From assembly GCF_900142415.1 (NCBI RefSeq), contig NZ_FRAU01000003.1:250307-314306 (forward strand): a DNA stretch of 64,000 bases, in the 5' to 3' direction. Both the position numbers and the translations under genes were made by a program. A model generated the notes under the pieces. It did not search any database, had not been told where the DNA came from, and worked only from the letters and a program-made list of their open reading frames with translations. Source of the stretch: Rhodothermus profundi. Its GTDB lineage: Bacteria; Bacteroidota; Rhodothermia; Rhodothermales; Rhodothermaceae. Within the stretch, counting starts at the first letter, position 1. The number at the start of each line of letters is the position of its first letter. Below, piece after piece: positions 29,725 to 33,170 of the stretch.

Positions 29725-29834
29725 GCGCACGGCTGCGTGTCAGGCCCGTGAACGAAAACGCACGGGATCTCGTTTCCTCCGCGCGCATTCGATGCGAGCC
29801 GTTTGTAGTTTATAGCGAAAAATCGTCCGTACGG

Positions 29835-30662
29835 ATGGCCTCACAACCGCGACCCCTCATTACGTTGACCACTGATTTTGGCACGCGAGACGCGTACGTG
29901 GCTGCCATGAAGGGGGTATTACTCGGTCTGGCCCCCCAGGCTCAACTGGTGGATATTACGCATGACATTCAGCCCCAGGATGTGATGGAGGCGGCCTTTG
30001 TGTTGCGCGAGGCGATCCCTTATTTTCCTCCAGGCACGATTCACCTGGTTGTTGTTGATCCAGGCGTAGGCACAGAGCGACGGGCCGTAGCGCTTCGCCA
30101 TGGCTCTTACTGGTTTGTGGGACCGGATAACGGACTGTTCACGCTCGTGCTGGGCACCGAGCATCCGGATGAGCTCGTCGAGCTTAATCGACCATCCTTC
30201 TGGCGCACGCCAACGCCCAGCCAGACCTTCCATGGGCGCGATATCTTCGCGCCAGCAGCCGGCCATCTGGCCGCCGGTCGTTCGCTTCAAGAAATCGGAA
30301 CCCCGATCGAACGGCTTACTACGCTGCGCTGGATGGAACCATCCGCCAGTAACGAAAGCATCCACGGCTGGGTCATTCACGTAGACCGCTTTGGCAATTG
30401 CATTACGAATATCTCCCGGGAATTATTTGAGCACTACCGCGCAGACCGTCCGTTCAAATGCTACGTGGGCAGCACCCCCTTTACGCAGGTGCAGCCTACG
30501 TATGGAGCAGTAGCCCAGGGCGAGGCGCTTCTCCTGTTCGGCAGCAGCGACTTCTTGGAGATTGCGGTCAATGGCGGCAATGCGGCCGAGCTGCTCGGCA
30601 TTCGTCAGGGGACACCGGTCCACATTATCTTTGAACAGAAACCGACGCGCAACCGCTCATGA
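29835..30662 (+). CDS. SAM hydroxide adenosyltransferase (DUF62/SAM_HAT family)
   Basis: 275 residues. The start is ATG 29835, where family similarity begins (LITLTTDFGTRDAYVAAMKG). Other family landmarks are VDITHDIQPQDV, VVVDPGVGTERR, FVGPDNGLFT, and the C-terminal beta-barrel with HVDRFGNCITNI. Relatives include SAM-dependent fluorinase and chlorinase, but ordinary genomic members hydrolyse S-adenosylmethionine to adenosine and methionine. The Asp-Arg-His set of the hydrolases is suggested by D14, R18 and the conserved H/D segments. The stop overlaps the next start in ATGA, coupling it to the sigma-like membrane protein. Confidence 0.92.
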   Translation: MASQPRPLITLTTDFGTRDAYVAAMKGVLLGLAPQAQLVDITHDIQPQDVMEAAFVLREAIPYFPPGTIHLVVVDPGVGTERRAVALRHGSYWFVGPDNGLFTLVLGTEHPDELVELNRPSFWRTPTPSQTFHGRDIFAPAAGHLAAGRSLQEIGTPIERLTTLRWMEPSASNESIHGWVIHVDRFGNCITNISRELFEHYRADRPFKCYVGSTPFTQVQPTYGAVAQGEALLLFGSSDFLEIAVNGGNAAELLGIRQGTPVHIIFEQKPTRNRS

Positions 30663-31831
30663 ATGCCTTGCAGGCTACCCCCCGCGCCCTGCTTACCCAT
30701 CTGGATGAGCTTTACCGGTTGGCGCAACTGCTAACGCCTGATGCAGAAACGGCCGTCCGACTGGTCCGAACGGTATACCGGGAAGCGCTGGACGCCCCCC
30801 CGCCGGCTGATCAAGCCAGAACCTGGCTGATCGCCCGGTTGCTGCATCACGCGCAGGCTTCCAACACAGCGGAAACCTCAGGCCTGGCCGCCAGCCAGGA
30901 ATTGGCAGAACGCATTTTGAGCCGGGTGCTTCCTGCTGCGATCGCTTTGCTGGCAACGCGCGACCGGCTATGGCTGTACCTGTGTGACGTGCTGGAACTA
31001 ACGCCTGAGACGGCTGCTTCCCTGCTGCAGGATTCGCCGGAAGGCTACACCCGAGCGCATCAGGCCCTGCGCGGAGCACTCAGCCGGTATCTTACCGCCG
31101 GCCAGTTTGCGCTGCTTGAGTTTGGACTATCCGAGGCCCAGATTCGGTCCCACCTGCGGCAGGCCCTGGGTCGCCTGTTACAACCGCCGCCTGGTGCCTT
31201 GCGCACGGAACTGCTCAACCTGACAGGTAGCCCGTCGCTTGCGTCTGCCCCCCCGTCTCGATCGGTCGTGCACCACCCGGCCACCCGCACGCTCGTGGCC
31301 GTTCTGATCGTGCTGATGGCTGGCTTGCTGGGCTGGCTTGCCTGGCGAAGCACCCGCCCTGCTCCATCGCCTTCAGCCTCTCGTCCTTCTGACCTGATCC
31401 GTCGGTCTGTCGAGCTGGCTGCTTCATTGACCGTTGAGCAGCCGCTGACGCATCCAGCCGAAGCCGAACGCTACCTGGCCCAGCAGGGCTGGCGCGTCGT
31501 CATTCCCGACATTGCGGACGCCCGGCTTATCGGGCTAACGCAGGCACCTGTTCTGCCCGAGCTGAACGTTCCCGTACTGCTTTTCGAAGATCGCAAAAGC
31601 GGCCATACCCTGGCAATCTACCTCTACACCTACGCCCTGCTGGATCGTTATCAGAATCGGTTGTTGCTTGATCCCGATGTGCTGCGTCAGATTGAAGAAG
31701 AGCAGCATTTTGACCTGCATGTGCTGGGACGCCAGCAGGTGCTCGTCTGGCGCTACCGGGACGACATTTACGTAGCGGTTACGGAAGGAGACGCTGCCGC
31801 CCTGCGCGAGCGCATAGCGTTTCCGTCGTGA
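30659..31831 (+). CDS. Membrane protein: degenerate ECF-sigma-like domain, one TM helix, anti-sigma-like extracytoplasmic domain
   Basis: 390 residues. Residues 15-70 (ELYRLAQLLTPDAETAVRLV, RTVYREALD, WLIARLLHHA) follow the spacing of ECF sigma region 2. Residues 93-145 (AIALLATRDRLWLYLCDVLE, LTPETAASLLQDSPEGYTRA, HQALRGALSRYL) follow region 4, including the helix-turn-helix spacing, but lack many conserved basic and aromatic positions. One membrane helix spans 210-230. The rest (about 260-390) resembles the outer domain of ECF anti-sigma factors: GWRVVIPDIADARLIG, VPVLLFEDRKSGHTLAIYLY, LVWRYRDDIYVAV. I infer a membrane-tethered sigma/anti-sigma-like sensor. An ordinary structural membrane protein cannot be excluded. 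Confidence 0.75.
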   Translation: MNALQATPRALLTHLDELYRLAQLLTPDAETAVRLVRTVYREALDAPPPADQARTWLIARLLHHAQASNTAETSGLAASQELAERILSRVLPAAIALLATRDRLWLYLCDVLELTPETAASLLQDSPEGYTRAHQALRGALSRYLTAGQFALLEFGLSEAQIRSHLRQALGRLLQPPPGALRTELLNLTGSPSLASAPPSRSVVHHPATRTLVAVLIVLMAGLLGWLAWRSTRPAPSPSASRPSDLIRRSVELAASLTVEQPLTHPAEAERYLAQQGWRVVIPDIADARLIGLTQAPVLPELNVPVLLFEDRKSGHTLAIYLYTYALLDRYQNRLLLDPDVLRQIEEEQHFDLHVLGRQQVLVWRYRDDIYVAVTEGDAAALRERIAFPS

Positions 31832-31832
31832 G

Positions 31833-33170
31833 TCAGCGCAGCGGCAGCGTGATGCGAAACGTCGACCCCTGGCCTGGCCGGGACTGCACCAGCGCAATCG
31901 TCCCTCCATGGTAGTCTTCTACGATACGTTTAGCCAGGCTGAGTCCAAGACCCCAGCCTCGTTTTTTGGTGCTGTAGCCTGGTCGGAAAATATTTCTCCA
32001 CTGGCGTCGGTCGATACCGCGGCCCGTGTCCTGCACGTCGATCTGCACAGCGTCTCCCTGCACGCGGGCACGCACTTCAATGCGACCGTCCGTTCCTTCC
32101 ATCGCATCCAGCGCATTCTTGAGTAAATTCTCAATCACCCACTCAAACAGCTCGGCATTAAGCGGTACCCGAATGTCTTCCGGAACCTGTACCACCAGCG
32201 TTACCTGTTTGCCCAGACGCGGCATGCGACGCCGTATGTAGTCGGCAGTGTTCTGGATAACAGGAGCCAGCGGTTGCTCTTTGAGCCGCGGCAGCGACCC
32301 GATTTCTGAAAAGCGTTGCGCGACCCGCTTCAGGCGTGCAATGTCTTTTACAATTTCGTCAAGTGCTTCCTGCTGCTGCGCCGGTGCAAGGCTGTGGGTG
32401 CGGAGCAGCTCGACCCAGCCCATCAGGCTGGAAAGCGGGGTGCCGAGCTGATGCGCCGCTTCCTTGGCCATGCCTACCCAGAGACTGCGCTGCTCACTGC
32501 GCCGCACGTACGAAAAGCCGAGGTATCCGACCAAGATGAAAAGCCCCATCACAAAAAGCTGCACGTATGGAAATATCCGAAGTTGGCGAATCAGGCGCGA
32601 CTCTCCGTAGTGCACGTACTGCACCAGCTCGGTATCCTGGAAACGAAGTCGAATAGGAATGGGCCGGTGGACGCGATCCATTTCGGCTACCAGAGCGCGC
32701 AGGCGTGCCATAGCCCGCGCTGAGTCGGCAGGCGACAACCCCTCCAACGAATCTGGCACCGGCACATTGCGCCAGAACAGGGGGTGCAGCCCCGTTGCAT
32801 CGGTGATAATAGCAGGAATATCAAAAGCCCCTTCCAGGACAATCTCACTGGCGAGCGTCACGTCAAACGTAGGGGGCATGGTGCGCGCCCAGGCCAGCGC
32901 GGCCCGATACCGGGTGAGCTGTTGATTGTCTATCGCCGTTAACCGATCAAGCTGTTGCTCCAGTTGCTGGAATACGTCCAGGTAAGGATTAACGTGCGTG
33001 CTCGCAGCCAACTGCTCCTGTGCGGCTGCCCAGAGACGCACTAAAAATTCTTCCCGTTCTCGCAGCCGGTTGGCCAACCAGTTTGTATAGGCAACGGAAG
33101 CGACCGCGATTGCCACCGCAGCAATCACCAGACCGAGTTTTAAGTTGACCGAAAGGCGATAGGCCTTCAT
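31833..33170 (-). CDS. Membrane-bound sensor histidine kinase
   Basis: 445 residues. Two membrane helices (about 12-30 and 199-220) frame a periplasmic sensor region of about 165 residues. The kinase core begins at AKEAAHQLGTPLSSLMGWVE, with phosphoacceptor H240. N box VIENLLKNALDAME, G1 box VQDTGRGID, and G2 box KKRGWGLGLSLAKRIVEDYH are all intact, so it should be catalytic. No response regulator is adjacent; the nearest is the single-domain receiver at 42.7 kb. Its 3' end is one base from that of the convergent sigma-like protein. Confidence 0.93.
   Translation of the reverse strand: MKAYRLSVNLKLGLVIAAVAIAVASVAYTNWLANRLREREEFLVRLWAAAQEQLAASTHVNPYLDVFQQLEQQLDRLTAIDNQQLTRYRAALAWARTMPPTFDVTLASEIVLEGAFDIPAIITDATGLHPLFWRNVPVPDSLEGLSPADSARAMARLRALVAEMDRVHRPIPIRLRFQDTELVQYVHYGESRLIRQLRIFPYVQLFVMGLFILVGYLGFSYVRRSEQRSLWVGMAKEAAHQLGTPLSSLMGWVELLRTHSLAPAQQQEALDEIVKDIARLKRVAQRFSEIGSLPRLKEQPLAPVIQNTADYIRRRMPRLGKQVTLVVQVPEDIRVPLNAELFEWVIENLLKNALDAMEGTDGRIEVRARVQGDAVQIDVQDTGRGIDRRQWRNIFRPGYSTKKRGWGLGLSLAKRIVEDYHGGTIALVQSRPGQGSTFRITLPLR

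Follow-up and report, generated by a model that had tools for sequence, protein, structure and literature searches.

What is the role of a protein that carries a sigma-like domain on one side of a membrane helix and an anti-sigma-like domain on the other? This question is raised by a gene of Rhodothermus profundi, which we examined within a 64,000-nucleotide stretch of contig NZ_FRAU01000003.1 (hereafter, the window). The gene lies at positions 30659 to 31831 of the window on the forward strand, and its ATG at 30659 and stop codon at 31829-31831 agree with the reading frame and the length of 390 residues assigned in the initial annotation. It is present in a single copy within its own genome, and two Rhodothermus MAG relatives encode proteins with 74-78% identity. 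The upstream neighbor (29748-30662, forward strand) encodes a SAM hydroxide adenosyltransferase with the SAM_HAT N and C domains. The stop codon of that gene and the start codon of the gene studied here overlap by 4 bp (ATGA, 30659-30662), making translational coupling plausible. A sensor histidine kinase gene (31833-33170, reverse strand) converges from downstream, tail-to-tail. Neither an anti-sigma gene nor a TonB-dependent receptor gene adjoins the gene in this locus. Among the family loci examined, SAM_HAT is adjacent at nearly all, with exceptions mostly at contig ends, and the sensor histidine kinase is present at most.

Searched alone against Pfam, NCBIfam and PDB, the 390-residue protein gave no clear assignment, with Sigma70_r4_2 of Pfam matched at a subthreshold E value of 0.049. 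We built a profile of the N-terminal domain (N-domain) from 26 family members. Against PDB, this profile matched ECF sigma factors, SigE best (E = 2.7e-12) and then SigL and SigH, with both sigma2 and sigma4 covered. Alignment with hhalign to 12 ECF sigma factors, of which 11 are encoded in the R. profundi genome and one belongs to family f16, gave a probability of 98% (E = 1.2e-13, 147 columns). Ten column-shuffled alignments and the reversed alignment served as controls, as did the outer-domain profile; all were negative, with E values of at least 0.3 for the shuffled and reversed alignments. A sigma2-like domain (residues 8-70; 30680-30868, forward strand) is followed by a sigma4-like domain (residues 86-147; 30914-31099, forward strand) without a sigma3, which is the layout of ECF (group IV) sigma factors. 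Because the family profile and hhalign both matched while the controls were negative, we assign the N-domain an origin in an ECF sigma factor, in keeping with the degenerate, region 2-like and region 4-like N-terminus described initially. The full-length AlphaFold model, built with three Rhodothermus sequences as input, was poor and unusable (pLDDT 48.8), and the sigma fold therefore rests on sequence profiles.

The residues with which a sigma factor works are largely missing from this domain. At the core-binding D..Q motif of region 2.2, most ECF sigma factors in the alignment have the D (10 of 13) and the Q (11 of 13), whereas each of the two is present in only 2 of 26 family members; the R. 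profundi protein has arginine at both positions (R34 and R37). The region 4.2 segment has a median net charge of +2 in ECF sigma factors but −1.5 in the family (P = 4.5e-7, with the kinship of the sequences ignored); for the recognition helix, the medians are +5 and +1, respectively. The Rhodothermus sequence also has a 4-residue alignment gap behind G129, where the recognition helix of the helix-turn-helix (HTH) begins. With this gap and the loss of charge, region 4.2 no longer offers a complete, positively charged recognition helix. Deletions in the HTH occur in families f1, f4 and f13, and in f4 the gaps are larger, with most of the HTH missing in several members. The residues still conserved in the N-domain belong mostly to the hydrophobic core. 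As judged from these alignments, the sigma half is a pseudo-sigma that lacks the parts for binding RNA polymerase and promoters, and it is probably a signaling or structural module rather than a transcription factor. The initial annotation had suggested that it might be a decoy for core RNA polymerase or for other anti-sigma factors at the membrane; the former is unlikely because the core-contacting D..Q motif is lost. The same genome encodes a further divergent ECF-like protein (L062 1375-2016), with a low Pfam score and a G at the usual Q of region 2.2, that could be a second degenerate sigma.

The arrangement of the parts recalls IutY of Pseudomonas putida (ECF243), in which a cytosolic ECF sigma domain, a single membrane helix and a periplasmic anti-sigma domain form one chain (PMC5411451). 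The sigma domain of IutY is functional and is released by Prc and RseP (PMC5411451). The Rhodothermus protein has the same three parts in the same order, and regulated intramembrane proteolysis could likewise free an active sigma domain from it. However, its core- and promoter-binding residues are lost, as are the core-binding motif and recognition helix across the family, and its gene adjoins SAM_HAT and a histidine kinase rather than a TonB-dependent receptor. We consider a working protein of the IutY type very unlikely. In ECF48, ECF52 and ECF53, too, the ECF sigma domain has a C-terminal fusion partner made up of membrane helices plus an extracytoplasmic part; these proteins contain a zinc-finger anti-sigma domain, and proteolysis is expected to activate them as sigma factors (PMC8999054). 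The present family shares this C-terminal fusion, whereas the HxxxCxxC zinc motif is absent from every fused member examined. The claim in the initial annotation that sigma and anti-sigma are normally separate proteins was thus overstated, given IutY and ECF48/52/53; what stands of that annotation is the membrane-tethered, degenerate sigma domain fused to an anti-sigma-type outer domain.

Beyond the sigma4-like domain, residues 148-188 (31100-31222, forward strand) take the position expected of the final helix of an anti-sigma domain (ASD) and its pre-membrane segment. Residues 126-192 aligned weakly with an ASD (4%, E = 0.01, compared with at least 0.4 for shuffled alignments), making homology of this segment to the ASD only suggestive. 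A single membrane helix had been placed initially at 210-230, and hydropathy agrees, with a core at residues 211-229 (31289-31345, forward strand) and no second window above the threshold. The median net charge across the family is +3 before the helix and 0 after it, a bias that supports an N-terminus, and with it a sigma half, on the inside. The R. profundi protein, with flanks of +2 and +3, shows almost no such difference.

The predicted periplasmic part, residues 259-390 (31433-31828, forward strand), had no convincing sequence match in Pfam or PDB when searched as a profile. In related families of the class, the same profile found membrane anti-sigma-like proteins of about 280-320 residues, including the anti-sigma factors of f16 (E = 5.5e-30 and 1.8e-28). 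The hhalign comparison of the outer domains gave 99.6% (E = 1.1e-24), whereas shuffles did no better than about 0.04, and the outer domain is 37% identical over 114 residues to that of an f16 HxxxCxxC anti-sigma. These matches argue for homology, and the anti-sigma-like outer half proposed at the outset was well founded. A single membrane helix combined with a homologous outer domain is also characteristic of class I anti-sigma factors. The AlphaFold model of residues 241-390 reached a pLDDT of 89.9, being confident in only one of five models. Structurally, this model came closest to RseB/MucB, in their C-terminal domain (VIA Z = 7.2, about 91 residues; Foldseek E = 2.5e-3), a moderate match that we take as a lead on the fold only; PF17188, the Pfam family of this domain, had no sequence match at the gene. 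RseB is part of an envelope-stress sigma pathway and is a protein on its own, soluble in the periplasm and with a further domain. In the MucA/MucB and RseA/RseB pairs, MucB and RseB each use this C-terminal domain to bind the anti-sigma factor at its periplasmic part (PMC7400510).

Family f16 contains an unfused counterpart of both halves. Its anti-sigma factors are canonical, combining the homologous outer domain with a single membrane helix and a zinc-binding HxxxCxxC anti-sigma domain, and the gene overlaps that of an upstream, intact ECF sigma factor by about 20 nt (L084, L085). The pair thus differs from the Rhodothermus protein in comprising two genes, in the intact zinc motif and sigma, and in lying away from SAM_HAT. 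When the N-domain profile was searched against the f16 genomes, this adjacent sigma was the top ECF match in both G122 (1.0e-12, followed by 2.0e-7) and G074 (8.3e-11, followed by 1.9e-6), which we count as one observation since the two genomes belong to one genus. Because the best matches of the outer domain and of the N-domain are neighbors, the two halves of the fused protein correspond to the two genes of a single f16 operon, a gene-fusion 'Rosetta stone'. Orphan anti-sigma-like proteins in family f18 (L086, L087, L089, L090, L094) have the same outer domain behind a cysteine-free, anti-sigma-like N-terminus, with no sigma gene adjacent within the stretch read. Both f16 and f18 are distant from the fused family, and the tree is not securely rooted; we therefore infer the order of events, with fusion first and losses later.

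A helical domain could in principle resemble sigma factors by chance, and the lone sequence does fall below Pfam cut-offs. This explanation is strongly disfavored by the family profile, the profile-profile alignment with its negative controls, the correct succession of sigma2 and sigma4, and the Rosetta-stone match to the sigma gene next to the f16 anti-sigma.

The initial annotation had asked for the same architecture in other genomes, and relatives occur throughout the order, with a match in 50 of the 60 relatives' genomes sampled. The N-domain is absent from families f9, f12 and f14, and in f3 it is cut to a sigma4-like piece; in all of these, SAM_HAT is still upstream. One f3 locus (L091 1090-2037) encodes, downstream of SAM_HAT, a sigma4-like helix-turn-helix, a membrane helix and a divergent outer domain, with no recognizable sigma2. 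On the outer-domain tree, the presence and absence of the N-domain imply three or more changes; f14 falls among sequences that carry the N-domain, and the root and the position of f3 are unsure. The genomes of f15 searched had no outer-domain match. In two of the four f15 SAM_HAT loci read (L101 1498-3596; L105 179-2283), SAM_HAT and the convergent kinase abut with few bases between them, so the gene is cleanly absent there. Since the anchor and outer domain persist in several lineages that have no pseudo-sigma, the outer domain appears to be the part retained longest.

These losses raise the possibility that the N-domain is a decaying relic without function and that only the membrane anchor and the outer domain matter. 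The N-domain has been lost repeatedly and is less conserved across the order than the outer domain (mean column identity, 32% versus 38%). In G012 (L016; one contig) and G028 (L042; three contigs), the sigma-like and outer parts are in different reading frames; this apparent frame change may be a true frameshift, a programmed event or a sequencing error. Against decay, almost every member with an N-domain has an uninterrupted reading frame, and selection on the domain is evident within Rhodothermus. Median dN/dS values among seven Rhodothermus genomes (Nei-Gojobori) were 0.135 for sigma2, 0.141 for sigma4, 0.063 for residues 148-188 (the lowest in the protein), 0.585 for the linker 189-206, 0.132 for the membrane helix, 0.377 for the stalk and 0.092 for the outer domain; because synonymous sites are almost saturated and the pairwise values depend on one another, only the ranking is trustworthy. 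This ranking is at odds with a relic and argues that the N-domain is under purifying selection in Rhodothermus rather than drifting. We regard a functionless N-domain as unlikely.

The reading that we prefer, with a probability of roughly 60%, is a fused sigma/anti-sigma pair in which the sigma has been retired, most likely serving as an envelope sensor with the pseudo-sigma as its cytoplasmic module. An adjacent pair of genes for an ECF sigma and a membrane anti-sigma would have fused into one protein, after which the zinc-binding anti-sigma domain would have faded beyond recognition and the sigma half would have ceased to act as a sigma factor. The outer domain, as the principal working part of this one-piece sensor, may bind an envelope partner or ligand. 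The pseudo-sigma would then keep its fold as a cytoplasmic module, either to bind another protein or to pack against residues 148-188, and would not direct transcription.

A more specific role for the pseudo-sigma would be that of a sigma mimic. In this scenario, the tethered domain titrates a separate anti-sigma factor, or sequesters another transcription component, under the control of the outer domain from the envelope side, making the protein a transmembrane counterpart of PhyR. PhyR, which has a sigma-like domain and a receiver and is not a membrane protein, acts on NepR. Both proteins have a degenerate ECF-like domain retired as a sigma, and six family N-domains match the Pfam model PhyR_sigma-like and three match PhyR_sigma2 (best, 5.5e-8). 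The Rhodothermus protein differs by its membrane helix and outer domain, and Pfam matched no receiver domain in it. A mimic would fit a sigma fold that is kept under selection although the core and promoter determinants are gone, and the genome has two candidate anti-sigma factors of the zf-HC2 type elsewhere, one of them below the Pfam cut-off. However, class I anti-sigma factors mainly contact regions 2.1/2.2 of the sigma factor and, in sigma4, the residues that touch the −35 element (PMC7406223), and these are the faces that are eroded in the pseudo-sigma. In addition, there is no adjoining anti-sigma gene, and the N-domain is dispensable in several lineages. We therefore view the mimic as a tentative and rather doubtful alternative to the envelope sensor whose pseudo-sigma binds another partner or packs against its own chain.

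Sigma/anti-sigma fusions themselves are known. In the literature searched, we found no order-wide fusion with a dead sigma half beside SAM_HAT, no membrane-tethered pseudo-sigma, and no paper dealing with both a SAM hydroxide adenosyltransferase and an anti-sigma factor.

The order and its relatives offer a natural series, from the separate pair of f16, through the fusion with a disabled sigma in Rhodothermus and many families of the order, to half a sigma part (f3), anchor and outer domain (f9, f12 and f14), and clean absence (f15). Within this series, the Rhodothermus protein appears to represent a sigma domain that has been retired from transcription and yet is kept under selection. Automatic annotation could label such proteins as ECF sigma factors. 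Should the pseudo-sigma prove to be a sigma mimic, it would offer, alongside PhyR, a second way to achieve anti-anti-sigma control.
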